Source: Caulobacter sp. Root655
GTDB taxonomy: Bacteria > Pseudomonadota > Alphaproteobacteria > Caulobacterales > Caulobacteraceae
Reading direction: 5' to 3'
Assembly (NCBI RefSeq): GCF_001427665.1
Contig: NZ_LMHC01000001.1
Coordinates: 169,364 to 233,363, forward strand
Length of the DNA stretch: 64,000 nt
Shown: in pieces, positions 1 through 39,727 of the stretch
How the letters are laid out: each line of letters opens with the position of its first letter
How positions within the stretch are numbered: position 1 is the stretch's first letter
Made by a program: the position numbers and the translations under genes
Notes under the pieces: generated by a model
What the model was told of the DNA's origin: nothing
Database searches by the model: none
What the model saw: the letters and a program-made list of their open reading frames with translations, nothing else

Positions 1-204
1 AGGAAGTCGCCGCTCTGGGTCAGCTGGCTGTGGTCGTAGCCGTTGAGCACGATGCAGTCGCCGTTGGAGAACTGCACCACGGTGTCGCCGAACAGCTGGC
101 CCGTGGTCCAGGTCACGCCGGTTCCGGCATAGGCCGACAGGTCGATCGTGTCGTGGCCGTTCCCGAAGTCGGTGATCTGGTCGCGGCCCGAGCCCAGGCC
201 GAAC
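1..204 (-). pseudogene. Detached 3' end of the RTX protein gene, running off the window
   Basis: Read leftward, this stretch encodes the RTX C-terminal sequence from FGLGSGRDQITDF through TGQLFG, then DTVVQFSNGDCIVLNGYD and on to the window edge. It is the natural continuation of the RTX gene at 312-2777, which stops early after TGQLFG because of an insertion. The phase is kept: the extra DNA (118-bp repeat plus 119-bp foreign piece) is 237 bp, or 79 codons. This end resembles the C-termini of type I secreted RTX proteins, which carry the export signal, so the truncated upstream product probably lacks that signal. It has no start of its own and should be untranslated. The true stop lies outside the window. 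Confidence 0.8.
87..204. repeat. 118-bp direct repeat, copy 1
   Basis: This block is identical, base for base, to 324-441 (constant offset 237 bp). It encodes the RTX segment FGLGSG to QLFG. Identity stops abruptly at both ends: before gccgaac on the left and after gaac on the right. Confidence 0.95.
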
Positions 205-4174: not shown

Positions 4175-4290
4175 GGCTAGGCTCGGCCAAACGCCTCCCG
4201 CATCGCCCGAAAGCTTGACAATGGCGCCCGCCATCGTTCTGGTTGAGCGCTAGAGGCCAGCAGCAGTTGCTTGTTCCCGGGGGCGCGTTC

Positions 4291-14139: not shown

Positions 14140-14262
14140 TCAGGCTTCCCCCTCGGGCGACACCGGCACGTGGCCGACATCCGAGACCTCGACATAGGCT
14201 ATGTCGGACGCGGCAAGACGCTTGCGCTCGACCATCGGGGCGATCACGTCGGTGAAGTTCAC
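14140..14262 (-). pseudogene. Short ORF resembling an alpha/beta-hydrolase C-terminus
   Basis: A 40-codon GTG-started frame overlaps the rmlC stop (GTGA). Its end, YVEVSDVGHVPVSPEGEA, resembles the strand, catalytic-histidine loop (GH) and tail of alpha/beta hydrolases. Nothing else of such an enzyme is present, so it is probably a leftover of a lost gene in the rhamnose operon. Likeness is by eye only, and a chance ORF is possible. The ~170 bp between it and the rmlB remnant show no clear coding. Confidence 0.3.
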
Positions 14263-14831
14263 CAGACCGTCTCTTGAACGAACGGTGTGACCAGATCGGC
14301 CAGCAGGGGGGCGGCGGCGTCGCGAGCGTTGGTGGTGATCTCTTCGGCCGGAATCCTCCAGTCGATGGCCAGAGCCGGGTCGTTCCAGCGCAACGCGCCC
14401 TCGGCCTGGAGGGCGTAGTAGCCGGTAACCTTGTAGAGCACTTCGCACTCTTGGGTCAGGGTGCAATAGGCGTGGGCGAAGCCCTTGGGCACCAACAGCT
14501 GCTGGGCGTTGTCCGCCGACAGTTCGGCCCCGACCCATTGGCCGAAGGTGGGAGAGCCGTCGCGGATGTCCACCGCGACGTCGAAGATCGCGCCGCGCAC
14601 ACAGCGCACCAGCTTGTCCTGCGCATGCGGCGGTTTCTGGAAATGCAGACCGCGCAGCACGCCGCGTTGGGTCGAGCGTACGTGATTGTCCTGCACGAAG
14701 GCTCCGCCGGTGAAGCCGGCCTCGTCCAGGGCCGATTGGCGGAAGGTCTCCGAAAACCAGCCGCGCTCGTCACCATACCGCCGGGGTGTGATCAGCAGGA
14801 CGTCCGGAATGGAGAGCCGGTCGATGTTCAC
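14259..14831 (-). CDS. rmlC: dTDP-4-dehydrorhamnose 3,5-epimerase
   Basis: RmlC inverts C3 and C5 of dTDP-4-keto-6-deoxyglucose in dTDP-L-rhamnose synthesis. The 190-residue cupin has the family core: FVQDNHVRS, RGVLRGLHFQ (catalytic His), the DKLVRCVRG Lys, VPKGFAHAY and VTGYYALQAEG with the catalytic Tyr, then WNDPALAIDW. Its ATG overlaps the stop of the upstream glycosyltransferase (ATGA). A second, diverged RmlC-like gene lies at 35631. Confidence 0.95.
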   Translation of the reverse strand: MNIDRLSIPDVLLITPRRYGDERGWFSETFRQSALDEAGFTGGAFVQDNHVRSTQRGVLRGLHFQKPPHAQDKLVRCVRGAIFDVAVDIRDGSPTFGQWVGAELSADNAQQLLVPKGFAHAYCTLTQECEVLYKVTGYYALQAEGALRWNDPALAIDWRIPAEEITTNARDAAAPLLADLVTPFVQETVW

Positions 14832-20764: not shown

Positions 20765-22138
20765 CTAGCCGAGGGGCGTGAAACGAATCAGACGCACGCC
20801 GAGGCGTCGTTCGTCGGCGACCGGCTCTTCGTCGGCCGTCTTCGAATTGCCGATCTCAAGCCTGAGGTGCGCCGCCTCGCCAACGGGGATGCCCTGGTCA
20901 AATCGCAGCTCGATGTCATAGATCTTCGACCAGTCTTGGCTCTGGGGAAGCAGGCGAGTCGTCTTGATCCCGCAGAAATCGATCGTCAGTTCGGTAGGCT
21001 TCTCGCTTCCTATCCTGCGGGGTGAGATTTCGAGCCTGACTCCAAAACAGGGAGCGCCATAAACTCTCCATCCCACTGTCGCCGTGGGTTCGATGGTCCA
21101 GCGTCCTGTCTCTTCGCGGTCGCCGAAGCCGGGCAGGTCGATCGCACCGCTGTCGAGCAACGCCATCTCCACGACCCGGTCGGTTTTCAATGGCAGCTGT
21201 CGCACCGCCATGGTCGCGAGCAGCTCTTGGCGCGGGAGATCATGGGCGGCGGCGATTTTGGGAAAGGCGTATTCGACCAACGCCTGTTCCTCTGGATCGC
21301 TGAACGGCCTCTGTGGGCGGGCTGAGAAGTTGTTGACGAAGGAGTTCTGAACGCCGAGGAAGCTGGCGATTCCGGCCGAGACCTTGGCGAAGGCCGTGTC
21401 GTCGAGCAAGTCGTCATAATAGACGAAGTGGATCGCGTCGGGGTGCTCCTTGGCAATTTCCAGGGCCATCAGGGCGTCGTTGCGCCAATCGCCGTAGGCA
21501 TGCTCGATGCTTGTCACATGCCATTGGTCCTCTCCTGCCAGCGTATCGTCGCGGCGTTTCAGAGAAGACGCGAGCACTTCCATCGGATCGCGGAAAATGT
21601 AGAGCACCTTCAGTCGTGGCAAGCGCGTCCGCAGATTCGCGAAGTGATCCTCCCACTTGAGCAGATCCGGGGTCTTGTCGCCGATAACGCTCAAAACCTT
21701 GTCGGGAAACACGGCCGAGAAGAAACCGGTGACGACCCGGTCGAAGTGCAGGGCGGGACAAGGCATGGTGAGCTCGGGCAGGCGCACCGCCACCTCGTCC
21801 ATGATCTCCTCGGTGATCTCCGCCAGGGGAAGCGCCAGATGAGCATCTACGAGTTCATCATCGTCCATGGTGTCGAGCGGATCGATGTATTCACGCAGCG
21901 TCAGTTGCTTGAGCGGGCGCTTCAGACGCCCGATCGCTTCTTCGTGAGCCTTGAAGAAGACGTCCGTCGTTTCCAGGATTCGCGCCCAACCGAATTCCGC
22001 CAGTATGCCGATCCGTGGATGGGAATTGAGTAGGCTGGTGAGAGCGGTCGTCCCGCTTCTCCCGCATCCCGTAACAAGCAGGTGCGCGGGCCCGCGGGCT
22101 GCGTTTTTTTGGAATTTTTGGAAGAAATCATTCGTCAT
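20765..22138 (-). CDS. Sulfotransferase with an extra C-terminal domain
   Basis: The 457-residue protein begins with a PAPS-dependent sulfotransferase domain: the 5'-phosphosulfate loop LLVTGCGRSGTTALTSLL near residues 20-37 and the 3'-phosphate site YIFRDPMEVLASSLKRRDD near residue 185. Such enzymes move sulfate from PAPS to a hydroxyl, often on a sugar. From about residue 330 there is a separate beta-rich domain (RWTIEPTATVGWRVYG..LTIDFCGIKTTR..DERRLGVRLIRF) like domains attached to polysaccharide enzymes. The substrate is unknown. The surrounding glycan genes suggest surface polysaccharide, but no cysDNC genes for PAPS are in this window. Confidence 0.75.
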   Translation of the reverse strand: MTNDFFQKFQKNAARGPAHLLVTGCGRSGTTALTSLLNSHPRIGILAEFGWARILETTDVFFKAHEEAIGRLKRPLKQLTLREYIDPLDTMDDDELVDAHLALPLAEITEEIMDEVAVRLPELTMPCPALHFDRVVTGFFSAVFPDKVLSVIGDKTPDLLKWEDHFANLRTRLPRLKVLYIFRDPMEVLASSLKRRDDTLAGEDQWHVTSIEHAYGDWRNDALMALEIAKEHPDAIHFVYYDDLLDDTAFAKVSAGIASFLGVQNSFVNNFSARPQRPFSDPEEQALVEYAFPKIAAAHDLPRQELLATMAVRQLPLKTDRVVEMALLDSGAIDLPGFGDREETGRWTIEPTATVGWRVYGAPCFGVRLEISPRRIGSEKPTELTIDFCGIKTTRLLPQSQDWSKIYDIELRFDQGIPVGEAAHLRLEIGNSKTADEEPVADERRLGVRLIRFTPLG

Positions 22139-25020: not shown

Positions 25021-28000
25021 CTAGATCAAGGGTCCTGGCGTGGTCTTGGCCGGGACGCCGATCGAAGTCAGAATCCCGTCCCAGGCTTCGAGGTAGCGAC
25101 GCCGGCTGGCGATGTTGCGATAAAAGTCGAGACCCTTTCGGGCCCGAATAGCCGCCTTGGCTGGATTCTTGAGTAGGGCGATGATGTCCTCGGCCATCTC
25201 GATGCCATTGCGAGATACGGGGAAGTCCTTCGGCAGATCCATCGCCGGCGCTGGAAAGTCCATCATCGAGAACGGCAAGCCTTGCGAGAAGGCGTCCAGC
25301 ACCTTGATCGGGACGCCAGCGCCCGTGACGATCGGCAGGGTCACGACGCGGGTGGCGAGATAGTACTCCCGCAGATCGCCGACCCAGCCGACATAGTCGA
25401 TCTGGTCAGCGAGAAAGCCTGTGTCGAGCGCCGAGCAAACCTTGCCCACGATCCTCAATGTGACGCCCTGATCATAGAGCATCGGCTTGTAGACGGTGTT
25501 GATGAACCACGCGGCCGAGGCGACGTTGGCGTCATGCAAGCTGCCGACCAGCAGCAGATCCGTGACCTCCAGGGGCGGAGCTGGCTCGGCGTCGGCGTCA
25601 TCGACGCCAATCTCCGGGACAACGATCGATACCCTCGGCTCGGCGATGAAAGGCATCCGCCAACTGACCTTCTTCGGGTCGAGCGTGGCGGAGATCTCGT
25701 CCGCCTCGCGCTTGCTGATGCTCACCACATGGGCGAAGTCCTTCAGCGCCTCGAACTCATGAGCGACTTCAATCGGATCAGCCGGTCGTTGCTGCTGGAT
25801 CGCGTATTGATAGGCCTGGATATCGTGCGCCTCGCAGATCATCGGGAGATCGGAAAGATTGAGCGTCTCCAGGACCGCCGAATGGTGAGCGTAGTTGACC
25901 ACGGCGAACTCGAGGTCGGCGTGAAGCAGGATCCGCTTCAGTTCCTCGGGAAACTCCAGTTCGCGCCAGGCCCGTTGGAAGTTGAGGTAGCTGTTTCCAT
26001 CTTGGGCGAAGGCGTCGAGCGTGGCTTGAAACCTCGGCGTGTCCGCGAAGGACGGCGTCCACTGCAGTGTGTCCAAGAACTCGCCGTGATCGAAGTCCGC
26101 GCCGGTGACGCGGTGGATGTTCGGATAAGGGATGACCAACTTGATCGAGGTGAAGCCCGCCTCGTCCAGGTAGGACAACTGGCTATCATAGACGACGCCC
26201 GAACCCTCGCCGCGGGTGTCATTGGAGATCCAGAGAACCAGGCGGCCGCGGGGCGGGACGGTCGAATCGAGCTTCGCGACGATTTGCGCGACAAACGACG
26301 CTTCATCGCCAAACAGTCGGGCGTTACGCGCCCTGTAGTCCAGGGACTGAGCTTCCAGTTCCTTGAAGCGGCGCGCGGCCTCGGCGCAGGCCTGGGCCAG
26401 GCCGAGCTCATTCTGCACGCGAGGTTCGACGATACCCGCGCCAGCATAGGTGCCGGCGATGTCCAGACCACGTGAAACCACCAAGGGTTTGCCGGCCGAA
26501 ACCGCTTCCGTGGCGACGCCGGATCCGCGGCGCGTGTAGTCGCCGGGGCCGTAGGGCAGCATCAGGATGTCGATATCGGCGATCGCCGAGGCATACTCGT
26601 CTTCGGAGAGGAAGCCTTTGAGGACCAGGCGATCGTCATTCAGCGCTCGACGCTCGAGCTGTTGACGCGCGCTGATCACCAGGGGCTGCTCGTTGACGGG
26701 GTTGGCGCCGGTTTGGATGAAGAACCGCACTTTGTCCCGGAGGTCATCCTGCGCCAGCAGGTACTCGACAATGAACGGCAGGACCTGGAAGCCCTTCTCC
26801 ACCCGGGCCTCGCCCAGATAGCCCAGGCACAGACGCCCGTCCTGCTTGCTCCCCGCCTGGCCGGCGCTGGGAAGCGGGTTGAAGAGCAGCGGGAACACCT
26901 CGCCGCAGATGTCCTCGAAATAATCCTGAAGGCCCTTCGACTCGACGAAGAAGCTGAAAGAGGAGCGAAGGCCCAAACCGTTTAGGCGAGCAAACGCCTG
27001 CGCATAGCTCAGTCGCGCCTTGGGGGTCCGCTCCTCCGAACGGTCGAAGCGGATCACGATGCGCGGTCGCTGATCGGGCTTTCGTTCCAAGAGGAACGGC
27101 AGGGCGCCGGCCAGCATCGCCGGGGTCGCGCAAAACAGGGTGATTACGTCGTCGGGACCGGCGGCGGCGAACTCGGCCATCAAGCGGAATTCGTGAGTGA
27201 ACAGGCCGATGTCGGCCACGTTGCCGTACAGGAAGTCCGAGAACGCGCCGTAGGTGTCGACTTCCGGCGCCAGAAGTCCCCTCGGACAAGCGTGGTTGCC
27301 GAACACCAGCGGGGTGAGGCCGTTCGCATGCGCGCCCCGCGCCATCCAGTCGGCGACCGCCGCGTGGTGGCCGACCTTGTTGCTCAGGGCGGGGTCGCAG
27401 ATGATCAGCTTGGGTCCGGCGCAGACCGCCGGCTCGACCAGACGTTGCCGCATGGTCTCGGCCAGCAGCGTGGGCGTGGCGCCGAAACCGTCCACGAAGG
27501 CCGCCACCGAGACCATGCGACCCATTAGCATCATGGCCACGTCGCCGGCGATCCTGGGCGGAAGGGCTGGGGCGACGCGGATCGCGTTGATCGACTTGCC
27601 TTCAGCCAAGAGCCTGACGGAACCGGCCAAGACCTTGACTTTGAGGTCCGCCAGAGCATCGGGAGCCAGAACCAGAACCTGAGCGCGACGGCTCATCACC
27701 AGTTCGTAGACCAGCGCCGTATCGAGACTCTTGGTCGATCCATTGTGGCAAGCGCGGGCCAGGCCCGAGAAATCGGCCTCCGTCTGGCCGAAGGGCATGA
27801 GCACCACCGCTTCGACCTGCCCGTCGTCAGCGCCGACAAGCTCGCGCAGGGTCGCGAGTTGTTCTTGAGTCGGCGCTGTCTCGCAGACCAGCACGATCTT
27901 CAGACCGGGCTTGCGCTGGACCACCTTGGGCCAGGCAGGCTTGACACCGATCGGGGTCCTGATGCGACGGCTGCTCACCGCTCTGTGACCGATTTCGCGA

Positions 28001-29103
28001 ATCTTTTCGCGGAACGGGGCGACGAACGTCTCGCGCGGCCGAGGTTGCAAGCGAGGCGGCGGATTCAGCACGAACTCGCGGAGGTCGTTGGCGATCTGCT
28101 GAGCGTCGAGAACGTTCTTGAACTGACGGATATTGGCCGGTGGCGGATTGAGCGCCTCGGCGGAGGGGGAGTTCGACGTCAGCAACGGCAGACCGTTGAG
28201 GGCCGACTCCGTGACCGGGACGCCCCAGCCCTCATACAGCGACGGATAGACCATGCCGAGCGAGTTGTTCAGCAGGCCCGCGAAGTCCGGCGTCGAAAGA
28301 TAGGGAATCGGGCGGATGCGCTGGCCCAGGCGCGCGTCGGTGAGCAACTGGTGATGTAGTCGCGTGTTCGCCTCGATGGGGAAGACTCGCGAAAACAGCA
28401 AATCGACATCGTCTGGGAGCTGTTCAGTTTCGATCAGGTGAATGAAGGCCTGAAACAGTCGATAGTGGTTCTTGTGGTTCCACTGCACGGCCGGGAAGAT
28501 CAGGTTTCGCCGCTCGGCGACGGTCGGCGAGGCTTCCTGGTCGAGCAGCGAGAAGTAGGGAGGTTGCGGAATCCAATCGACGGCCTTCTTGCCGAAGTGG
28601 CGCTTGATCTTGTCCACTTCGTTGCTGCTGACGGTCAGCACCAGATCGGCCCGGTCGATGGCCGAGCCGTAGTGCTCCCGCCGGAAGTCGAGCTCGCATT
28701 GATCAAAGAACTGCGGTTCTTCGAGGAACAGCATGTCGTGGATGACGGGAACCGCGAACGTCGAAATCTCATACGGCTCCAGGCCGTTCAGGGGATCGAC
28801 ATAGAGGTCGAGCGCGCTCGAGGCGTTGGTCAGCGCCAGCTCCGGGCGCTCCAGCTTGACCACCTGGCCACGCGAGTCCTTCCCCAGGAACTTGCGCACG
28901 ATCGCTTCGTTCTCGGGCCTGACGAAGATATCGACGTCGAAAAGTTCACTCGCGACGCGCGCGAACTCAAGCGCGAACAGACCAGCTCCGCCTGCACCCT
29001 TGCCGCCCGACTGCAGTCGCGTGAGATTAATACCTGCCCGCACCCGCGAAACATCACGATGATCGATCAATCGCCGTCCCCCAATATTCACTTCCACAAT
29101 CAA
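25021..29103 (-). CDS. Multi-domain glycosyltransferase with three GT-B-like modules
   Basis: A 1360-residue cytoplasmic protein. Module 1 (about residues 20-365) has VIHDMLFLEEP, FPAVQWNHKNHYRLFQAF and the GT4 donor site MVYPSLYEGWGVPVTESALN. A poorly marked segment (370-570) follows. Module 2 (about 580-930) has LGYLGEARVEKGFQVLP and MLPYGPGDYTRRGSGVATE. Module 3 (about 945-1345) has GSLHDANVASAAWFIN and VVTLPIVTGAGVPIKVLDAFSQG. It could add two or three sugars in turn to a growing chain. It is the last gene of the FAAL-ACP-WcbI operon. The TTG start overlaps the preceding stop (TTGA); GTG codons two and four codons on are alternatives. Confidence 0.85.
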   Translation of the reverse strand: MIVEVNIGGRRLIDHRDVSRVRAGINLTRLQSGGKGAGGAGLFALEFARVASELFDVDIFVRPENEAIVRKFLGKDSRGQVVKLERPELALTNASSALDLYVDPLNGLEPYEISTFAVPVIHDMLFLEEPQFFDQCELDFRREHYGSAIDRADLVLTVSSNEVDKIKRHFGKKAVDWIPQPPYFSLLDQEASPTVAERRNLIFPAVQWNHKNHYRLFQAFIHLIETEQLPDDVDLLFSRVFPIEANTRLHHQLLTDARLGQRIRPIPYLSTPDFAGLLNNSLGMVYPSLYEGWGVPVTESALNGLPLLTSNSPSAEALNPPPANIRQFKNVLDAQQIANDLREFVLNPPPRLQPRPRETFVAPFREKIREIGHRAVSSRRIRTPIGVKPAWPKVVQRKPGLKIVLVCETAPTQEQLATLRELVGADDGQVEAVVLMPFGQTEADFSGLARACHNGSTKSLDTALVYELVMSRRAQVLVLAPDALADLKVKVLAGSVRLLAEGKSINAIRVAPALPPRIAGDVAMMLMGRMVSVAAFVDGFGATPTLLAETMRQRLVEPAVCAGPKLIICDPALSNKVGHHAAVADWMARGAHANGLTPLVFGNHACPRGLLAPEVDTYGAFSDFLYGNVADIGLFTHEFRLMAEFAAAGPDDVITLFCATPAMLAGALPFLLERKPDQRPRIVIRFDRSEERTPKARLSYAQAFARLNGLGLRSSFSFFVESKGLQDYFEDICGEVFPLLFNPLPSAGQAGSKQDGRLCLGYLGEARVEKGFQVLPFIVEYLLAQDDLRDKVRFFIQTGANPVNEQPLVISARQQLERRALNDDRLVLKGFLSEDEYASAIADIDILMLPYGPGDYTRRGSGVATEAVSAGKPLVVSRGLDIAGTYAGAGIVEPRVQNELGLAQACAEAARRFKELEAQSLDYRARNARLFGDEASFVAQIVAKLDSTVPPRGRLVLWISNDTRGEGSGVVYDSQLSYLDEAGFTSIKLVIPYPNIHRVTGADFDHGEFLDTLQWTPSFADTPRFQATLDAFAQDGNSYLNFQRAWRELEFPEELKRILLHADLEFAVVNYAHHSAVLETLNLSDLPMICEAHDIQAYQYAIQQQRPADPIEVAHEFEALKDFAHVVSISKREADEISATLDPKKVSWRMPFIAEPRVSIVVPEIGVDDADAEPAPPLEVTDLLLVGSLHDANVASAAWFINTVYKPMLYDQGVTLRIVGKVCSALDTGFLADQIDYVGWVGDLREYYLATRVVTLPIVTGAGVPIKVLDAFSQGLPFSMMDFPAPAMDLPKDFPVSRNGIEMAEDIIALLKNPAKAAIRARKGLDFYRNIASRRRYLEAWDGILTSIGVPAKTTPGPLI

Positions 29104-29954
29104 ACCGAAGAATTTTCTAAACGTTCCCGACGAATCTTGTAGTATTCTTCAATGTACTCTTGTTCTGAAAGGTAAAGGTCAAGATACTTATATTTTAGCG
29201 ACGGCCCCCACCAGATTAGTCCGAGCTTTTCGGCGACGACTTGCGGGATTGGTACGTGTTGATGGTCGAAAGGTTCCCACCCCCGGAAGGCGTCGGCGAC
29301 GACTCGCCCCATTTCGACGTTCGGATCGCCAGCCTCGGGCCAGGTCGCCACGGCCAGCCTGATGAACAGTTTGCCCAGTAGGATAGAGGTGGGGTGATTG
29401 TAGGCCCAATAGAGACGTTCGACACGGAAGCTCGAGAAGATAAAGGCCGCGATCTTAACGTCCGCGTTGGCCTCTCGGCGCTGCAGCCGGTGCAATTCCA
29501 GGTCCAGCGACCGATCGATATTGCCCAGACGCTCGTTGGCGAGCGCGTGGTAGGCGGTGGTGGTGTCTTCCGGAGGCGGCGTGCGCTGGCTTAGCTCGAC
29601 CACGACCCGATCGCCGTAGGGATAGCGGCCAAAGGGAAATTCGGGTTCGGGCCCAAACAGCGGATCGTGGGTCTGGAAGGGCCAGTAGAGACCAAGGTCC
29701 ACGGCTGGGAACGTGATCCTCCGCGCCTGGGCCAGCTGTTCATCGGGATTGAAGCGTGCATGCTCGTCGACCTGCCGCCAGTAGATCTCGCAGCGCGCCG
29801 CCTGGTCAGGGGTAATGTCGGGTCGATCGTCTTCGTCGCCGAAGCTCTGGATATAGACGACCTCATAGCGCTCATTGATCGCCGGCACTCGACGCAACGC
29901 ATGGCAGAACACCCCGGCCTGGCAGTTGCCGTAGACCGCTAGAACAGGCTTCAT
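29100..29954 (-). CDS. WcbI-family putative polysaccharide acyltransferase
   Basis: The 284-residue product starts with the strand VLAVYGNCQAGVF. The GNCQ motif at the N-terminus is the mark of the WcbI family, first met in Burkholderia capsule clusters and thought to transfer an acyl group to polysaccharide. Other visible features are a long middle segment rich in Trp/Phe/Pro and a charged C-terminus. I chose the ATG at 29954 because GAAGGACG lies at the right distance; an ATG nine codons earlier lies inside the ACP gene. The gene follows an acyl carrier protein by 4 bp, which fits an acyl-ACP donor. The last ~70 bp are clearly AT-richer than the neighbours. Confidence 0.7.
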   Translation of the reverse strand: MKPVLAVYGNCQAGVFCHALRRVPAINERYEVVYIQSFGDEDDRPDITPDQAARCEIYWRQVDEHARFNPDEQLAQARRITFPAVDLGLYWPFQTHDPLFGPEPEFPFGRYPYGDRVVVELSQRTPPPEDTTTAYHALANERLGNIDRSLDLELHRLQRREANADVKIAAFIFSSFRVERLYWAYNHPTSILLGKLFIRLAVATWPEAGDPNVEMGRVVADAFRGWEPFDHQHVPIPQVVAEKLGLIWWGPSLKYKYLDLYLSEQEYIEEYYKIRRERLENSSV

Positions 29955-29958
29955 TTCA

Positions 29959-30195
29959 CTAACGTCCTTCGATGACGGCAATCAACTGGCCAACATCATC
30001 CACATCAAACAGTCGGTCGATCGGCAGGGTCTTGCGAAGTCGCGTCTCCAGTTCGAGGATCAATTGTCCATGAGCGAACGAGTCCCATCCTGGAACCTCC
30101 TCCGCTTTCGTCTGATCAACGATGGCGCTTTCGGGCAGATGGAAGAAATTCGCGATGATTTTTCGGACGGAGGTTCCGACGTCTTCCGTGCTCAT
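29959..30195 (-). CDS. Acyl carrier protein
   Basis: A 78-residue protein of ACP size with acidic helices and the phosphopantetheine site GWDSFAHGQLILELE, where the Ser should carry the prosthetic arm. The last helix (LFDVDDVGQLIAVIE) is also typical. It is coupled to the upstream ligase gene (ATGA overlap at 30192-30195), which is the probable loader of its acyl group. It is distinct from housekeeping AcpP, which has a DSLD site. I infer that it passes acyl chains to the WcbI-like protein next door. Confidence 0.88.
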   Translation of the reverse strand: MSTEDVGTSVRKIIANFFHLPESAIVDQTKAEEVPGWDSFAHGQLILELETRLRKTLPIDRLFDVDDVGQLIAVIEGR

Positions 30196-31868
30196 TGCGC
30201 GCCCTCTTTGAATGCCTCAAGCGATCGCTCGAACTCGGCTCTGTTTAGCGACCGGCTGATTTTTCCGCTCGTGGTTTTTTTCAGCGATCCTAACGGAGCG
30301 ACCTCGACATAGCGCGGCAGGAGACCGGCGGAGGCGTCAATCGCGCGGCGCACGGCCGCCACCGCGGCCGTCGGCTCCGTGCCGTCGAGCAGTTCGAACA
30401 GGACGGCCATCTCGCGTCCGCTGGCGCCCGGCGTGTCGAGCCCGAACGCGACCACGCGGCCGGGCTTGATCCCGTCGACCGCGCTGACAGTCGCCTCGAT
30501 CTCATGGGCCATGAAATTCCGGCCATAGGCGATGATCAGATCATCGACGCGCCCCAGCACGAACAGTTCGTCATCGACGACGAAGCCGAGGTCGCGCGTA
30601 TGGTAACCGTCATCGTGCAGCACTTCGGCGGTGCGCTCCGGCAGGGCTAGATAGCCCTCGAAGAGCGATGGCCCCGCGATCACGATTTCGCCGGCCTGTC
30701 CTTCGCCGACGTCCCGGCCCTGGTCATCGACGAGTCTGATCCACATGTCGGAAAGCAGGCGACCGCACGACATGACGTCGAGGCCGGGTTCGTCTTCCGC
30801 CACGAAGCGCACGGTGTTTCGCTCAATCGCCTTACGGTCGATCCGGACGGCTCGGGCTGGAGACCCGGTCGGGGTCTGGCTGACGGCGAACACGTTCTCC
30901 GCCATCGCGTAGCAAACCTGAACGGCTTCCGGCCGCAGGGCCGAGGGCGCGAAGTGAGCGGTGAAGGCCTCGTGGACGGATAGTTTGCAGGGCTCCGAGC
31001 AGTTCCCGATCATCCGCAGGCTCGACAGGTCGTGCGCGCCGGTGTCGACAACCACGTTCACGAGATGGGCGAAGGCGAAATTCGGCATCCAGCTGAAGCC
31101 CGCCCGATGGTCGCGGACCGCCTCGAGCAGCATGGCGGGCCGGACGAGCCACTCGAACGGATCAATCGACACGACGGTCGCGCCAGCGACCAGCGGCATG
31201 AGGAAACTCGTGATCAAGCCCATGTCGTGATAGAGCGGCAGCCACGACGCGACCAGATCCTGCGGCTCGAAGCCGATGGTCGCACCATAGCGGTCCAACT
31301 GCGCGAACACCCGCTCGTGGGTCAGCATCACACCCTTCTTTAGCGCGGTCGTTCCCGACGAGTGCTGAAGGAAGGCGACATCCGCGGCCTTGAGGATGGG
31401 CAAGGCCGTGGTCGGGATCGGCGCGCCCGCCGCCGCGACGTGCAGATCCACCAGCCGATCCGCCCATGCTCCGCAGCGGTTCGAGAACACCGGAATGAGG
31501 CTGGAGTTGACGAGCAGGGCGGCCGGCCCGATCCGCTCGAACAGGCGGACGTGCGACGACCAGTAGAGCTCTTCCTTCTGCTTTGGCGTGGGCGGCGGCA
31601 TGATCGCGGGCACGGCCCCCAACGCCATGGCGCCCCAGAATGCCGCGAACAACTGCGGCGAGGTTTTTTCAAAGATCAGTACTGGCTGACCCGGCTGGAC
31701 ACCGAAGGCCGCTAAGGCGGCCGCCACCGCGAGCGAATCGCGACGCAGGTCAGCGTAGGTGTAGGGCGTCTCGCCGCGGATCGACTTGAAGATCGCGCAA
31801 GGTTTCTCGCCCTGCGAAAGGCCATGCGTCAGGACGGTGTCGCTCAAGACGCGTTCACTGGAGTTCAT
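30192..31868 (-). CDS. AMP-dependent acyl ligase, fatty-acyl-AMP-ligase-like
   Basis: A 558-residue ANL-superfamily enzyme: phosphate loop HSSGTTALKKGVMLTH (residues ~170), PLYHDMGLI as in fatty-acyl-AMP ligases, the adenine region CYAMAENVFAV, DGYHTRDLGF and the hinge GRVDDLIIAYGRN, with a C-terminal SGKISRSLNR catalytic Lys region. It should activate a carboxylic acid as its AMP ester and load it on a carrier protein. The ACP gene starts within its stop codon, which makes that partner likely. The acid is unknown. It is the first gene of a four-gene leftward operon and diverges from the pyruvyltransferase gene. The 31869-32114 gap shows no other gene. Confidence 0.88.
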   Translation of the reverse strand: MNSSERVLSDTVLTHGLSQGEKPCAIFKSIRGETPYTYADLRRDSLAVAAALAAFGVQPGQPVLIFEKTSPQLFAAFWGAMALGAVPAIMPPPTPKQKEELYWSSHVRLFERIGPAALLVNSSLIPVFSNRCGAWADRLVDLHVAAAGAPIPTTALPILKAADVAFLQHSSGTTALKKGVMLTHERVFAQLDRYGATIGFEPQDLVASWLPLYHDMGLITSFLMPLVAGATVVSIDPFEWLVRPAMLLEAVRDHRAGFSWMPNFAFAHLVNVVVDTGAHDLSSLRMIGNCSEPCKLSVHEAFTAHFAPSALRPEAVQVCYAMAENVFAVSQTPTGSPARAVRIDRKAIERNTVRFVAEDEPGLDVMSCGRLLSDMWIRLVDDQGRDVGEGQAGEIVIAGPSLFEGYLALPERTAEVLHDDGYHTRDLGFVVDDELFVLGRVDDLIIAYGRNFMAHEIEATVSAVDGIKPGRVVAFGLDTPGASGREMAVLFELLDGTEPTAAVAAVRRAIDASAGLLPRYVEVAPLGSLKKTTSGKISRSLNRAEFERSLEAFKEGAQ

Positions 31869-32114
31869 CGACAGGTCTTTCAGGAGGCGTGCTCCAACGA
31901 ATCATAAGCAAGCCCAGCAGCGTTCGCGCTTCCCATGGCGGGCGCTGGGATTTCTAGCCTTGAGAGTTGGCAACCGCAACGGGTGCAACCGTTTATGCCG
32001 ATCGTCACCGCCAGGGAATGACGTTGCCGGTCTTGCCTGATAGGCGTGTGCCCGCGCCGGGCGTCGAACGCCGCGCCGGCGGTCGATGAAGACCTGTGTC
32101 CTGGAGCTGGCGTG

Positions 32115-33848
32115 ATGTCTTGTCCCTTAACCGCGGTGCTTAAGTACGATCGGCCGTTCGCCGACGAGACGAATGTCGGGGACGCGATGCAGTCGCTGGG
32201 CGCGGTGCGCCTGTTGGGCGGCGTTGATATGTATCTGGACCGCGAGGGGCTGCACGACATCGTCGCCTCGCGCGAAGTGTTGCTCGTCGCGGCCGGGAAC
32301 CTCTCGGAGGAGATGCCCATCGGCTGGGGGCCGCAACCGCCCATCCGGCCGTTGTACATCGGCACGCGCCTGAGTCCGCACCTGATGACTCCAGAGTTCG
32401 TGGCTCACCTGAAGGCCCAGGGGCCAATCGGGGCCCGCGATCCCGCGACGCTCGAACTGTTGCGGGCCCACGGAGTTGAAAGCTACTTTTCCGGCTGCCT
32501 GACGCTGACCCTTCAGACGTCGCCGCCGGTCAAAAGACAGGGCGTGATCCTGGTCGATCTTTCCGACGCGGCGATGGCCGGTCTGCCGGAGCACCTCTCG
32601 CGCGACGCACTGCTGGTCGACCACGTCAGGGCGCCCGGCGGCGGGATGTTCGTCCGTCCGCTGAACGCCGCGCGCCACGCCGACGAGCCTTCCCGCTGGG
32701 AGGCGATGGTTGGGCCCCGCAGCGGTTGGAAGGGCCTCTCCACGATCGAAGATCTGGCGCATGCGCCGGAAAGCGCTCCGGCAATGCTGTTTCCGCGGCT
32801 CGACCGTTGGGAAGATAACCTCAGAGCGGTTCACGAACTCTCTCACGCCCAGGCGCTGCTCGAGCTCTATGCCGGCGCCGAACTGGTGGTGACCAGCCGT
32901 CTGCATTGCGCTCTGCCCTGCCTGGCCCTCGGCACGCCCGTTGTTCTGATCACCGCGGACGACGTCTACGCGCCGTCGCGATACGGCACGTTCACCCATT
33001 TCCAGCGCCGCTGGTCGGATTCAGAGATGGCGTCGATTGATTGGTCGCCCGCGCCGCCCGATCTTGCTCCCCATGCCCAATGGCTGCGCGGCATGCTGCA
33101 CGATCGGTTGCGCGAGCGAGGCGTCGCCGTATCCGCCGAAAACTCAACGGCACGATCAAGCCCGCCAGCGATTTCATCAGTTCCGCCCGTCAGGACGACG
33201 GCCGACGACGCCTCGCCGGCCTTCCGCAATACGCTTCGCAACCCGCAGTTCGACGAGTGGACCCGAGCGGATTCGCCGATAGTCTACGCTGGACAGACCC
33301 CGGCGGCCGACCACTGGCGCTACTTCCTCCACAGCAGCGGCGTGGTCGCCGATCAATCGCGGCGTCCCTTCAAGCTGGGCCAGGTGGATGTCGAGGGCGC
33401 GCCGCGTCACTACGCCCGTGTCCACGTCCGCGAGGCGGCGAACGCCGCCGTCAACATAGACCTTCTCCAGCGGCTTGAGCATCTGGAACTGCTGGCGGGC
33501 GAGCCGGCCACGTTCTCCATCTATCTGCGCGCCAGCCGTCCCTGCGATGCGCGCTTCTTCTTGCTCCGATTTTTCGGCGAAGGCGGAGATCCGCCTTACT
33601 ACGACACGCCAGAGGAGCCGTTCGTTCAGATCGACACCGTCTGGCGTCGTTATGCCTGGCGATTGAAGGGGCGCGGCCTGGAAGGGCGCGTCGCGGGGCC
33701 GGGCGCCCACGTGGACTTGACGCTGAGATTGCGCGAACTCGGGGCCGATACGGTCGTCGATCTAGCCTGCGCCCAACTGGAGGCCGGGGGGCGCATGACC
33801 CGGTTCGACACCGGCGCTCGGGACCTTCGCCGCATGCTGGGAGGCTGA
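32115..33848 (+). CDS. Polysaccharide pyruvyltransferase fused to a phage-tail-like carbohydrate-binding domain
   Basis: A 577-residue two-part protein. Residues ~1-335 look like a polysaccharide pyruvyltransferase, which moves pyruvate from PEP to a sugar as a ketal: ADETNVGDAMQSLGAVR near the start and VVTSRLHCALPCLALGTPVVLI near residue 260. After a Ser/Pro-rich linker, residues ~370-577 begin NPQFDEWTRADSPIVYAGQTPAADHW and end ACAQLEAGGRMTRFD, the pattern of beta-sandwich domains at the ends of phage tail and capsid-decoration proteins. It may hold the enzyme on its polymer. I chose the ATG at 32115 (MSCPLTAVLKY); a GTG at 32046 is possible. Confidence 0.75.
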   Translation: MSCPLTAVLKYDRPFADETNVGDAMQSLGAVRLLGGVDMYLDREGLHDIVASREVLLVAAGNLSEEMPIGWGPQPPIRPLYIGTRLSPHLMTPEFVAHLKAQGPIGARDPATLELLRAHGVESYFSGCLTLTLQTSPPVKRQGVILVDLSDAAMAGLPEHLSRDALLVDHVRAPGGGMFVRPLNAARHADEPSRWEAMVGPRSGWKGLSTIEDLAHAPESAPAMLFPRLDRWEDNLRAVHELSHAQALLELYAGAELVVTSRLHCALPCLALGTPVVLITADDVYAPSRYGTFTHFQRRWSDSEMASIDWSPAPPDLAPHAQWLRGMLHDRLRERGVAVSAENSTARSSPPAISSVPPVRTTADDASPAFRNTLRNPQFDEWTRADSPIVYAGQTPAADHWRYFLHSSGVVADQSRRPFKLGQVDVEGAPRHYARVHVREAANAAVNIDLLQRLEHLELLAGEPATFSIYLRASRPCDARFFLLRFFGEGGDPPYYDTPEEPFVQIDTVWRRYAWRLKGRGLEGRVAGPGAHVDLTLRLRELGADTVVDLACAQLEAGGRMTRFDTGARDLRRMLGG

Positions 33849-34019: not shown

Positions 34020-34811
34020 ATGGCCCTGAGCATCCCATTTGGCGTCATGGACTTCTTCCGTGGCGTGAAGCAAATCAACATCGCCTGGTATCTTGCGTTC
34101 ACGGACATCGGCAGCCGCTATCACAGAACCGCGCTGGGCCCCTTGTGGGTGGTCGTGGCGCAAGGTGTATGGGTGCTTGGCCTCGGCTATGTGCAGAGCC
34201 AGGTCTTTCACGTCGATTTCAGCAAGATGACGATCTATCTGGCCGCGGGCCTACCGGTATGGGTGTTTCTGACCGCGAATGTGACTGACGGGGCCGCCGC
34301 GCTTCTGCGCGCCAAGGGCATGGTGACGAGCTTCCCGTTGCCGCTGTCTCTGTATCCTATCGGCAAGATGCTGGAACAGATGATCCTTCTGTTCCACCAG
34401 ATGATCATTTTCGTCGTCGCCTGCCTGCTTTACCGGTTCGTCCCCAACTGGCGGATCATCGAGTTCATTCCGGCCCTGCTTATCGTCAGTGTTGGCATGC
34501 TCGGCCTCAATCTCGGCCTGGGCGTGCTCGGCGCGCGCTTTCGTGACGTCCGCCCAGCCCTCGCCAGCCTGATGACCCTTGGTTTCGTCGTGACCCCGGT
34601 GTTCTGGTTCACCGAGTCCGTTGGACGTCACAGCCTGATCGTCAAGTACAACCCGTTCTACTATATGCTGGAACTCATGCGGGCGCCGTTGATGGGCGTG
34701 ACCCCGCCTCTGGAAATCTGGGTCACCTCAAGCTTGCTCAGCGCCGTATTCCTGGTCAGCGGCCTATGGGCCTTCGCATCCACCCGAAAAACCGTCGTGA
34801 GTTGGCTCTAG
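34020..34811 (+). CDS. wzm: ABC-2 type polysaccharide export permease
   Basis: A 263-residue inner-membrane protein with about six hydrophobic segments (ALGPLWVVVAQGVWVLGLGY, IYLAAGLPVWVFLTANV, LIVSVGMLGLNLGLGVLGARFRDV, LMTLGFVVTPVFWF). The FRDV loop and the PxxPLG-like arrangement are those of Wzm/KpsM proteins, which move complete lipid-linked O-antigen or capsule chains across the inner membrane. The ATP-binding partner follows after 4 bp. An AAGGT site precedes the ATG. The 170 bp upstream, after the pyruvyltransferase, hold no clear gene. Confidence 0.9.
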   Translation: MALSIPFGVMDFFRGVKQINIAWYLAFTDIGSRYHRTALGPLWVVVAQGVWVLGLGYVQSQVFHVDFSKMTIYLAAGLPVWVFLTANVTDGAAALLRAKGMVTSFPLPLSLYPIGKMLEQMILLFHQMIIFVVACLLYRFVPNWRIIEFIPALLIVSVGMLGLNLGLGVLGARFRDVRPALASLMTLGFVVTPVFWFTESVGRHSLIVKYNPFYYMLELMRAPLMGVTPPLEIWVTSSLLSAVFLVSGLWAFASTRKTVVSWL

Positions 34812-34815
34812 GTCC

Positions 34816-35634
34816 ATGACCGCACCCTTTCCCCCCCCCAAGCATGCGTCCGTCGCGAGCCCGGTGTCGCTGAACGGCCACGCCTCGATCGAGCTCCTGC
34901 ATGCCTCGGTCTGGTTGCCCGTCTTCGCGCAGGCTCAGCAGATTTCGCTTTTCGCGGGCCTGGCCAAGACGCTCTCGATGGGCAGGATCGCGCGCAACGG
35001 CGGTGGGGCGCTCTATGTGAACCCGCTGAACGGCGTCAGCCTATCCATCAACGAAGGTGAGCGCGTCGGGCTGGTCGGTCGCAATGGCGCGGGCAAGACG
35101 ACGCTGCTCAAGTTGTTGGCGGGGGTGCACCACGCCTCCAGCGGTCGCGTACAGATCAATGGTTCGGTGGCCTCGCTGCTGGAGATCGGCGGCGGCATGG
35201 ACCTTGAGCGCACCGGCCTGCAGAACATCGAGTACGTCACCCGCCTCCTGGGATTCGACAAGCGCGAACGCGCGCGCATCCGGGATGAGATCGTCGAGTT
35301 CGCGGAGTTGGGCCAATTCATCGCCCTTCCCGTGCGCACCTATTCCGCCGGTATGATGACCCGGCTGTCCTTCGGCCTGGCCACCGCGCGCCCGAAGGAT
35401 ATCCTGGTTCTTGACGAGGTCATCGGCGCGGGCGACGCCTTCTTCATCGAAAAGGCGGGTGACCGCATCCGATCTCTTGTCCAGCAAGCGCGGATCATGG
35501 TGCTGGCCACCCATTCGGCCGATATTCTGGTGAACTTCTGCAACCGGGCGGTCTGGGTCGATCAGGGCGTCATCCGGGCGGACGGCGACCCGGCCGAGGT
35601 CTGGCACCTGTACATGAACTCCGAACCGGCTTGA
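34816..35634 (+). CDS. wzt: ABC transporter ATP-binding protein for polysaccharide export
   Basis: A 272-residue ATPase that drives the Wzm channel: Walker A GRNGAGKTTLLK, ABC signature YSAGMMTRLSFG, Walker B DILVLDEVIGAGD and switch His in ATHSAD. The GAGDAFF segment is typical of Wzt/KpsT. There is no extra C-terminal carbohydrate-binding domain as in O9a-type Wzt, so chain-end recognition, if any, must lie elsewhere. About 60 residues precede the core nucleotide-binding fold. It is in an operon with wzm and the following epimerase-like gene (TTGA overlap). Confidence 0.92.
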   Translation: MTAPFPPPKHASVASPVSLNGHASIELLHASVWLPVFAQAQQISLFAGLAKTLSMGRIARNGGGALYVNPLNGVSLSINEGERVGLVGRNGAGKTTLLKLLAGVHHASSGRVQINGSVASLLEIGGGMDLERTGLQNIEYVTRLLGFDKRERARIRDEIVEFAELGQFIALPVRTYSAGMMTRLSFGLATARPKDILVLDEVIGAGDAFFIEKAGDRIRSLVQQARIMVLATHSADILVNFCNRAVWVDQGVIRADGDPAEVWHLYMNSEPA

Positions 35635-36182
35635 CGTCCTTGAGCTACGCCTTCGAACCGGTGCGCGATATGGGGTGCATCATTCGGGCGGAGCGCAATG
35701 GCGACCCGCGAGGGTGGCTGGCCGAAATCTACAACGCCGAGATCTTCGCCGCCGCGGGCGTTCCTGGATTCGTCCAGGACAACATCTCGCGCTCGAGCGA
35801 GGCGGGGACTGTCCGCGGTCTGCATTTCCAGTTCCCGCCGCATCAACAGGGCAAGCTCTTTCGGGTCGCCCGTGGCGCGGTGTTCAACGTCGCCGTCGAT
35901 CTCCGCGGCCCCGGCTTTGGCCAGGTCGACCAGAGGGTGCTCGACGATCCAACCGTATGGATCTACCTGGAGCCAGGCGTGGCCCATGGTGTCCAGACGC
36001 TGGAAGCAGAGGTGGAGCTTCACTACAAGCTGACCGCTCGTTTCGAGCCTCGCGCGCTGGGCGCGCTAAGATATGACGATTCCGCCCTGGGCATCGCCTG
36101 GCCTATCACGCCCGACCGGAGTCGGTTGTCGCCGCGGGATCTGGCGGCGCGATCACTGGCCGACCTCGAAGGCGCGTTCTAG
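35631..36182 (+). CDS. RmlC-like dTDP-sugar epimerase paralogue
   Basis: A 183-residue cupin of the RmlC family: FVQDNISRSS, VRGLHFQFPPHQQGKLFRV (catalytic His and the nearby Lys kept) and EPGVAHGVQTLE. At the place where RmlC has the catalytic Tyr pair (VTGYYALQAEG in the copy at 14259) this protein reads LTARFEPRALG, so the Tyr is replaced by Phe. It may therefore epimerise only one carbon or act on another keto-sugar. The TTG at 35631 overlaps the wzt stop; a second TTG lies three codons on. Confidence 0.78.
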   Translation: MTSLSYAFEPVRDMGCIIRAERNGDPRGWLAEIYNAEIFAAAGVPGFVQDNISRSSEAGTVRGLHFQFPPHQQGKLFRVARGAVFNVAVDLRGPGFGQVDQRVLDDPTVWIYLEPGVAHGVQTLEAEVELHYKLTARFEPRALGALRYDDSALGIAWPITPDRSRLSPRDLAARSLADLEGAF

Positions 36183-37232: not shown

Positions 37233-38465
37233 GCGGACCGCCATGAACAGTCGCGCCAGCACGATCTTCACGCGGGAGGGCAGCAGGGCGCGCAAGCGAC
37301 GCCAGCCGGGTATTCTTCCGAGGCCCTCGCGCAGAGACTCAAGGTGCTGCCGAGCCACGCCCATCGCCTGTCGCTCGGCCGCACGGGCCAGATCCTCGGG
37401 TCCGCGGGATGCTTTCAGGGCGCGCGCCATGGCGGGGTTGCCGGCGACCAGGCCGCTCGCCAGTTGCCGGTACAGTTCCATATCCTCGAAATAGCTACGA
37501 ACAAGCCGCAGCGCCGTGGCGGGCGTCAGGGAGGGCGGGCGCTTCAGCGTCGCGCAGGCGGCGACGAACGCCGGCAGGGCCTTGAGGTCCTCCTCCCAGC
37601 GCAGACGCCCGGCCTCGACACCCTTGCGGGCCATGGTCCCCAGGCGTTCTGCGTCGGAAAGGTCAAGCGCGCCGTAGGAGCCCGGATCGAACAACATGCC
37701 ATTGATATTGTTGGCGATGTACTCGTTGTGCACCGGCCAGGAGGAACCGATGACGCACATCCCCCGCGCCATCGCTTCCAACATGAACATGCCGATGCCT
37801 TCGGAGAACCTCGGGCACACCGCGACGTTGCAGCTGTCGATCACGTCCGACAAACCCTTGGGGTCGTCGAACCAGCGCGAGCTGGTCACGCCGTAGCGCG
37901 ACGCCCACGACGGCAGGGTGACCTCCTCGTCGGGGTCATCGGGGGCGATATGGACGTGGATCGACTCGAAATTGCCGGGCAGCAATCGAAACACCGTTTC
38001 CAGATCGAGCTGGTCGCCCCGTCGGTGCCAGAAGAACACCCGCGGTCGCTCGAAGTCCTTGGCGAGCGCGAACGGTTTCGGATCGGGAAAATATTGCACG
38101 ACCTTGGCGCTGGCCATCAGCTCTCGGGTGGCCACGTGCAGGTTGTATGAGAAGTTCAGGATGCTGGCGTCCGACAGCGCCGCCCAGTGCTCGGCGGGCT
38201 GAGCGCCGCTGCCGTCGTACATCGGTATGACCAGGACGCTGGCTCCAACCGAGATGGGCAGGAAGGCCAGGGCTTCCAGCTGCCAGACGACGACCAGATC
38301 GAAGTCCGTGAAGTTCAGCGCGACCAGACGCTCGATTTCGCTGTCGGCTATCAGTGGGTCGAAGAACTCCAGCGTGACGTCGCTGAAACCTTTTAGGAAA
38401 TCCAGAAAGAACCGCGAAGAACCGGTCTTGCGGTGGAAGGCATGATCGAGAAAGAGAATCCTCAC
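37227..38465 (-). CDS. Glycosyltransferase, GT-B fold
   Basis: A 412-residue enzyme. The N-terminal half has RILFLDHAFHRKTGSSRFF, and the C-terminal half has the GT4-like donor site CPRFSEGIGMFMLEAMARGMCVIGSSWPVHNEYI with its E-x7-E pair. A basic helical tail (WRRLRALLPSRVKIVLARLF) may touch the membrane. I chose the GTG at 38465 because AGGTGAG lies just upstream and it overlaps the previous stop (GTGA), whereas the TTG at 38483 lies further inside that gene. Sugar donor unknown. Confidence 0.82.
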   Translation of the reverse strand: MRILFLDHAFHRKTGSSRFFLDFLKGFSDVTLEFFDPLIADSEIERLVALNFTDFDLVVVWQLEALAFLPISVGASVLVIPMYDGSGAQPAEHWAALSDASILNFSYNLHVATRELMASAKVVQYFPDPKPFALAKDFERPRVFFWHRRGDQLDLETVFRLLPGNFESIHVHIAPDDPDEEVTLPSWASRYGVTSSRWFDDPKGLSDVIDSCNVAVCPRFSEGIGMFMLEAMARGMCVIGSSWPVHNEYIANNINGMLFDPGSYGALDLSDAERLGTMARKGVEAGRLRWEEDLKALPAFVAACATLKRPPSLTPATALRLVRSYFEDMELYRQLASGLVAGNPAMARALKASRGPEDLARAAERQAMGVARQHLESLREGLGRIPGWRRLRALLPSRVKIVLARLFMAVRR

Positions 38466-39646
38466 GCGCTCACCTCGGTCCAAACTGAAGCCATCTGAGT
38501 CCGGGCGAGTTCGGCGTAGCGGGCGGCCGTTCTATCCGTCAGGGGTGCGACGTCGGACACGGTCATTTGGCTGAAGCGACGGATGGTGTGGACGAAATCC
38601 TCGTCGCCCGGACAATTGAACGCGGCTTCCAGTTGGGTGACCAAGGGGTGAAATCCGGTTCCGGACGCGATGGCGAACGGGCGATGCTTGGCAACGCCTT
38701 CCATGAATACCGCTGACCCGCGGAACCGGTAGGTTTCGTAGTCGTAGGGCATGATCAGGAAGCTGCAACGTGCGTATTGGGCCTCGAGTTCGTCGTCGGA
38801 CAGGCGCGCGGGCAGCAGGTCGATGTTCGGCGCGGCATAGAGCTGGGAAACATAGTGCGTCTGGTGTCGTTCCTCGGCGACCGGAACGTTCTGAACCACG
38901 AACTGGACATTGTCTTTCGGATAGGTCTTGGCGTACAGGCGCGCGATGTTCAACAACCGGAAGAAGCCCTTGTCCCCGCGCCCCGCGCCGGCGGAAAATA
39001 CCCGGTAGGACCCGGTGGCCGGCAACGGCGCGGGGGCTGACTCCAGGGGATAGAGCGTCCAGCCTACCTCTCGCTTGAACGTGTCCCGCAGGTTGTCGGA
39101 GTAGACGGGGCTTTCGGCGGACAGCGTGACACGATCGGTCTGACCCAGGCTTTCGAGGAGCTTGCCGATGTGGGCCAGGGGTTTGTTCGTCGAACGTGTG
39201 GCGTTCTCCATTACCCCGATGAACCGCAGATGTATCCGTGGGATGTTCTGCGCGCCTCTCGCGATCAGCGCCCGCAGCAGACCGCAGACGCCGTAGAAAT
39301 CGACACTCGGATAGAACAGATGGTCGTCGGCGCCGATCGCATCGTCGTCCAACCATTGGCTAAACTCGGCGAAGGACAGCGCTTCGAGCGGATCGAGGCA
39401 ATCGCCGGAGCCCTTGGGCGGCGGAGCCGGCGCCGTCTTGATCGGTACGAACTGCTGGTAATAGTAGTCGAACCGGCGCTCGAACTTGGCATACTCGCCC
39501 GTCAGCAGCGGAAAGTACCGGCAGACGACCGGGATCGGCTCGTAACCCGCTGAAGCGAAATAGTCCGAAAAATACAGGAGCGATTTCGGGTTGTGACCAA
39601 AGTCGAGCACGCACATGGGATCGATGAGAAAGACTCGCTTGATCAC
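38462..39646 (-). CDS. Glycosyltransferase-like protein, GT-B fold
   Basis: A 394-residue protein. It starts VIKRVFLIDPMCVLD and has GAGRGDKGFFRLLNIARLYAK (second Rossmann domain) and LIMPYDYETYRFRGSAVFMEGVAKHRPFAIASGTG, a donor-site region typical of GT-B enzymes in glycan clusters. I chose the GTG at 39646, which has GGAGGA at the right distance, over the TTG five codons earlier. It is translationally coupled to the next glycosyltransferase. Specific activity unknown. Confidence 0.75.
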   Translation of the reverse strand: MIKRVFLIDPMCVLDFGHNPKSLLYFSDYFASAGYEPIPVVCRYFPLLTGEYAKFERRFDYYYQQFVPIKTAPAPPPKGSGDCLDPLEALSFAEFSQWLDDDAIGADDHLFYPSVDFYGVCGLLRALIARGAQNIPRIHLRFIGVMENATRSTNKPLAHIGKLLESLGQTDRVTLSAESPVYSDNLRDTFKREVGWTLYPLESAPAPLPATGSYRVFSAGAGRGDKGFFRLLNIARLYAKTYPKDNVQFVVQNVPVAEERHQTHYVSQLYAAPNIDLLPARLSDDELEAQYARCSFLIMPYDYETYRFRGSAVFMEGVAKHRPFAIASGTGFHPLVTQLEAAFNCPGDEDFVHTIRRFSQMTVSDVAPLTDRTAARYAELARTQMASVWTEVSA

Positions 39647-39727
39647 TCCCAAATCCTCCAAAACAGACGGGAGCTAGACGCGTCGATGGTCGCCGCCCCA
39701 TCAAGGTGACGCATCGTCGAGCGATGC

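Follow-up and report, generated by a model that had tools for sequence, protein, structure and literature searches.

A candidate FAAL–ACP–WcbI module for carrier-protein-fed acylation of a surface glycan in Caulobacter sp. Root655

A 64,000-nucleotide stretch of the Caulobacter sp. Root655 genome (contig NZ_LMHC01000001.1, positions 169,364–233,363; hereafter the window) encodes, side by side, a fatty-acyl-AMP ligase (FAAL), a free-standing acyl carrier protein (ACP), a WcbI-family putative acyltransferase and a 1360-residue glycosyltransferase. Comparison with other genomes suggests that the first three are, on balance probably, a module that acylates a surface glycan with acyl groups supplied by a carrier protein. 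The parts of this proposal differ in strength. The ligase very likely loads the ACP, and we consider it likely that WcbI takes its acyl group from the ACP; the assignment of a surface-glycan sugar as the acceptor is probable but slightly less firm.

One line of evidence is the recurrence of the three-gene set. The initial search used WcbI alone, irrespective of ACP or FAAL, and WcbI proved to be scarce: at E 0.001, matches are found in 7 of 299 genomes of the order and in 3 of 75 genomes of the genus (the window's own, G1114 and G1119). The two closest WcbI proteins in the order, those of G100 and G064, are both accompanied by a FAAL and an ACP. In G100 (loci L010/L011) the FAAL gene is followed by ACP and WcbI fused as a single open reading frame (ORF), and in G064 (L009) the FAAL–ACP pair is divergent from WcbI and adjoins a Wzm/Wzt pair and glycosyltransferases. 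The same-genus G1119 (L188) has FAAL, ACP and WcbI in the gene order of the window, near an 840-residue protein with two glycosyltransferase matches; the stretch read around the G1114 WcbI contains no ACP. A FAAL-led scan of a contig collection covering 84,980 species revealed the window order in another phylum, Candidatus Eremiobacterota (L014). A WcbI family scan of two samples (385 genomes of the class and 398 of the phylum), together with a further scan of the order to which G482 belongs, gave further full sets in G482 (L100), G735 (L136), G785 (L138), G680 (L142) and G1094 (L182). The last of these was the sole addition from a nine-row WcbI profile (A3) that carried TPR tails, whose numerous weak and spurious TPR matches in one class (E 4e-5 and worse) were ignored. 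G485 (L097) has a set with a weak ACP, and ACP–WcbI without a FAAL is found in two genomes, G725 (ACP–WcbI–WcbI) and G472 (FkbH–ACP–WcbI). The totals are eleven full sets counting the window, one of them with the weak ACP, and two ACP–WcbI sets lacking a FAAL. Because the three genes occur together in ten other genomes, their association exceeds chance; the neighbors mostly differ between loci. The initial annotation of this DNA had described a four-gene unit that included the large glycosyltransferase, but the search of other genomes recovers a three-gene core. Other sets show a different downstream glycosyltransferase or none, and the 1360-residue protein, which is specific to the window locus, was rejected as part of the core.

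In a chain of loader, carrier and transferase, either end is expected to be exchangeable, and both swaps are observed. In L099 an FkbH protein (E 5e-91, over the cut-off) replaces the FAAL ahead of ACP–WcbI, and the genes for FkbH, ACP, WcbI and a MaoC/short-chain-dehydrogenase protein follow in that order, closely spaced on one strand. In L012 (9593–11364) an AlgX-like protein with an SGNH acetyltransferase domain follows the FAAL–ACP pair, with a WsaF-like glycosyltransferase adjacent; this locus may be a sister module that uses a different transferase. The AlgX-like protein also bears TPR.

The window WcbI scores over the Pfam gathering cut-off for PF18588 (65.8 versus 29.2 bits, E 5.5e-18). 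For its AlphaFold2 model (pLDDT 65, three rows), the only Foldseek matches at E < 0.001 are 4bqo and 4bqn, the structures of Burkholderia pseudomallei WcbI, with TM 0.5–0.55 for this moderate model. The G100 fusion (pLDDT 70) likewise has 4bqo and 4bqn as its top PDB matches, and its ACP half models as an ACP, the N-terminal part matching many ACPs. These models confirm the WcbI family, not the mechanism. Cys11 and His187 of the window protein are 97% conserved and, when aligned to 4bqn, correspond to its Cys14 and His201, which contact the thiol/acetyl (acyl-thioester) end of coenzyme A (CoA) (PMC4104973).

The distribution of ACP linkage within the family follows a short sequence mark. In a 35-row WcbI tree, all 14 ACP-linked rows are among the 19 that have Trp-Pro at window positions 91–92 (14/19, versus 0/16 of the other rows). 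Fisher tests give p 1e-5 by row and 4e-5 by genome, values to be read as descriptive, since the rows have common ancestry and L014 entered the set by way of its FAAL. The deepest split of this tree has modest support (92/67) and a few long branches, and one ACP-linked row (L100) lay on its other side in an earlier tree of 34 rows. Asp-Arg is found at window positions 115–116 in most ACP-linked WcbI proteins, and the window protein carries both marks of the ACP-linked lineage, W91-P92 and D115-R116. No relative of the window WcbI was found in viral contigs, and no ACP is annotated near its closest plasmid relatives (Azospirillum, Leisingera). A separate feature of the family is seen in L136, L139 and L140–L142, all from one class of the same phylum: their WcbI proteins, often two per genome, have TPR-like C-terminal extensions, and the gene order is ACP–WcbI–FAAL.

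The window ACP keeps the Asp-Ser phosphopantetheine site (Asp38-Ser39, within GWDSF), and the ACPs of the module sets align with a GWDS-x-x-H motif in which this site is conserved. The window protein resembles ACP families weakly (NCBIfam ACP, E 0.001; PDB ACP 2lml, E 0.0013) and has no Pfam match at E 0.001. The adjoining ligase belongs to the ANL adenylating family (Pfam AMP-binding PF00501, E 5e-57). Its best NCBIfam model is PRK09192 (fatty acyl-AMP ligase), with 299.9 bits against a cut-off of 600, which places the window FAAL outside the curated subfamilies as a divergent member. Its closest solved structures in the PDB are FAALs. A FAAL-specific insertion of ~25 residues follows YAMAE...SQT in the window ligase and in most module ligases; among the AMP-binding paralogues of the same genome, the nine that were alignable show a gap there. 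A CoA-ligase identity was rejected on the basis of this insertion and the PDB relatives.

In the window itself, the initial annotation's account of the locus is borne out: the four genes lie on the minus strand in 25021–31868 (Table 1), joined by two 4-bp overlaps and one 4-bp gap, and Pfam matches AMP-binding, WcbI (PF18588) and three glycosyltransferase stretches. FAAL and ACP overlap in ATGA. The gap separates the ACP stop from WcbI when the ATG at 29954 is taken as the WcbI start, the best choice because a longer ORF opening at a TTG (29981) would extend into the ACP gene. WcbI and the glycosyltransferase overlap in TTGA, which makes a TTG start codon plausible for the latter. GC at third codon positions is of the coding type in all four genes (FAAL 0.82, ACP 0.62, WcbI 0.70, glycosyltransferase 0.80). 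The three glycosyltransferase stretches match PF13692 (Glyco_trans_1_4, glycosyltransferase group 1). Read from the sequence, the first has E-x7-E and the second and third are without the first Glu of this motif, so it is doubtful whether modules 2 and 3 are catalytically competent.

GC content is lower across 20 to 42 kb of the window (~0.60–0.67, against mostly 0.66–0.71 elsewhere), and the genes of this region include sulfotransferase, glycosyltransferase, methyltransferase, epimerase, RmlC-like and Wzm/Wzt-like genes. Judged by this content, the FAAL–ACP–WcbI block is part of a surface-polysaccharide locus with ABC-type export. The Wzm-like permease is 29% identical to the permease adjoining the module in G064. 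The divergent neighbor with a polysaccharide pyruvyl-transferase-like domain was rejected as a shared part, the window and L100 proteins with PS_pyruv_trans matches being not detectably related to each other.

Table 1. Genes of the candidate module and of the adjoining polysaccharide region (window coordinates)
Feature	Position	Strand	Basis
FAAL, fatty-acyl-AMP ligase, 558 aa	30192..31868	-	Pfam, NCBIfam, PDB relatives, insertion
Free-standing ACP, 78 aa, Ser39 in GWDSF	29959..30195	-	Weak ACP model/structure matches
WcbI-family putative acyltransferase, 284 aa from ATG	29100..29954	-	PF18588, Foldseek, conserved Cys/His, tree
Large glycosyltransferase, 1360 aa, three GT-B/GT4-like modules	25021..29103	-	Pfam Glyco_trans_1_4
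Divergent neighbor with polysaccharide pyruvyl-transferase-like domain	32046..33848	+	Pfam PS_pyruv_trans E 5e-13
Wzm-like polysaccharide ABC exporter permease	34020..34811	+	NCBIfam galactan export Wzm E 4e-48, below cut-off
Wzt-like polysaccharide ABC exporter ATPase	34816..35634	+	NCBIfam galactan export Wzt E 1e-64, below cut-off

Several other genes of the window were recorded. A sulfotransferase-family protein (20765–22138, minus strand) lies at the edge of the low-GC region. Two RmlC-type genes are present (14259–14831, minus; 35631–36182, plus); the second, in the low-GC region 3′ of the Wzm/Wzt-like genes, is below the curated RmlC cut-off. A glycosyltransferase gene is tightly linked to the gene for a 399-residue protein without Pfam or NCBIfam matches (38462–39661, minus). 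Two large RTX (HemolysinCabind) repeat proteins (312–2777, minus; 4243–8424, plus), with 15 and 17 repeat stretches, are located ~12 kb from the polysaccharide locus and are possibly S-layer or secreted RTX proteins.

Gene organization, conservation and the natural ACP–WcbI fusion are the only features observed directly, and from them a three-step scheme may be drawn. (i) As expected from its family, the FAAL would adenylate a carboxylic acid and pass it to the 4′-phosphopantetheine arm on Ser39 of the ACP. (ii) On the comparative evidence, the acyl-ACP would dock on WcbI with its pantetheine arm entering what is the CoA-binding cleft of the B. pseudomallei protein, placing the thioester between Cys11 and His187; the acyl group could then be transferred directly or via an acyl-Cys intermediate. 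(iii) The gene neighborhood points to a sugar hydroxyl or amino group as the acceptor, in a polysaccharide that would be made by the neighboring glycosyltransferases and exported via the Wzm/Wzt-like transporter. The flow from acid to ACP to WcbI to sugar envisaged in the initial annotation is backed by the recurrence, the fusion, the swaps and the exporter. Its suggestion that transfer occurs while the chain is built found no support; acylation may take place on a nucleotide sugar, a growing chain or a finished chain.

A number of observations weigh against this scheme. In the published WcbI model the role of the partner is to present the acceptor rather than the donor. B. pseudomallei WcbI also binds CoA in intact form (PMC4104973), so some WcbI members may use acyl-CoA. 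Five of the 19 Trp-Pro rows have no ACP detected nearby (two of the five on short or cut contigs), and within the 14 kb read neither an ACP nor a FAAL accompanies a same-genus Trp-Pro WcbI (L187, 8060–8911), which also bears a Gly-Asp-Arg mark. Loci L136, L138, L139, L142 and L182 are without clear polysaccharide genes nearby in the stretches read, and the loci share ancestry, so that their counts are not independent trials.

One alternative, which we regard as unlikely though the best placed of three, is that acylation by the module precedes chain assembly, with a soluble sugar nucleotide in place of a polymer as its target; N-acylation of a 4-amino-4,6-dideoxy sugar would be an example. The L188 module comes 3′ of a sugar aminotransferase (LegC/PseC-like, E 6e-109) and a NeuD/PglD-like acetyltransferase, and in the closest described case, the O-polysaccharide of Flavobacterium psychrophilum, transfer is predicted from a dedicated ACP to UDP-Qui2NAc4N (PMC6519341). 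However, L188 thereby already holds a PglD-like enzyme for a sugar N-acylation step, and in the window no sugar aminotransferase is seen within ~20 kb of the module; the closest lies at 55470–56630. Less probable still is that WcbI uses acetyl- or acyl-CoA, the original proposal for B. pseudomallei, while the FAAL–ACP pair has a separate job in the glycan locus, for example making a lipid part. The crystal structure with bound CoA (apparent Kd 58 uM; PMC4104973) fits this alternative, as does the occurrence of the other half of the WcbI tree without an ACP, but the G100 fusion, the repeated co-occurrence amid changing neighbors, the FkbH–ACP–WcbI locus and the confinement of ACP linkage to the Trp-Pro lineage all argue against it. 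It is very improbable that the product of the module is an acylated small molecule or lipid with no connection to the polysaccharide: lipopeptide and polyketide paths are where FAALs are best known (PMC11837247), and L136, L138, L142 and L182 lack clear polysaccharide genes nearby, but the modules of the window, L009, L014, L100 and L188 lie amid glycosyltransferases, sugar genes or polysaccharide exporters, and no polyketide synthase (PKS) or nonribosomal peptide synthetase (NRPS) is found among the window neighbors scanned.

The initial annotation did not know this set as a described unit, and our literature searches, within the library covered, likewise turned up no description of it. The WcbI structure with bound CoA dates from 2013; the B. 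pseudomallei capsule protein was inactive in three assays and on its own showed no acetyl-CoA-dependent activity, and its authors proposed a missing partner (PMC4104973). In the literature found, acyltransferase activity is shown for no WcbI member. The recurrent ACP and the G100 fusion provide a concrete candidate for the WcbI donor. The presence of the ACP suggests a protein-bound acyl donor whose arm would fill the CoA site, instead of or besides an acceptor-presenting partner. A broader proposal, to which we give even odds, is that a large WcbI lineage consists of acyl-ACP-dependent glycan acyltransferases, that acyl-ACP is the missing partner whose absence left WcbI inactive in assays and that interchangeable loaders (FAAL, FkbH) let bacteria decorate surface polysaccharides modularly with different acids. 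If true, this would add a route for placing non-acetyl acids on bacterial surface polysaccharides, would explain otherwise puzzling FAAL–ACP pairs in glycan loci and would make Trp-Pro a sequence mark separating ACP-type from other WcbI proteins.

Among known systems, DltA–DltC–DltB/D (teichoic acid D-alanylation) and AlmE–AlmF–AlmG (lipid A glycylation) resemble the module in their logic of an adenylating ligase, a small carrier protein and transfer to an envelope polymer or lipid, but their ligases act on amino acids and their transferases (MBOAT and lysophospholipid-acyltransferase types) are unrelated to WcbI. Stand-alone FAAL/ACP pairs of the JamA/JamB type likewise have the FAAL adjoining its cognate ACP, but feed PKS or NRPS lines; the FAAL review that covers them does not mention polysaccharide, glycan or sugar in its text (PMC11837247). 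B. pseudomallei WcbI (PF18588; 4bqn/4bqo) shares with the window WcbI its family and fold (Pfam, Foldseek) and the Cys and His at the CoA acyl-thioester end; the window protein is only distantly related to it, belongs to the Trp-Pro lineage and has an adjoining ACP and FAAL, whereas the B. pseudomallei protein was studied with CoA in a paper that has no mention of an acyl carrier protein (PMC4104973). The R-group pathway of F. psychrophilum likewise has a dedicated ACP (WfpD) in a surface-polysaccharide locus, predicted to hand a dihydroxyhexanoyl group to a sugar acyltransferase (WfpG), but there the acid is predicted to come from enzymes resembling type II fatty acid synthase rather than from a FAAL, and a PglD homologue serves as the transferase instead of WcbI (PMC6519341).

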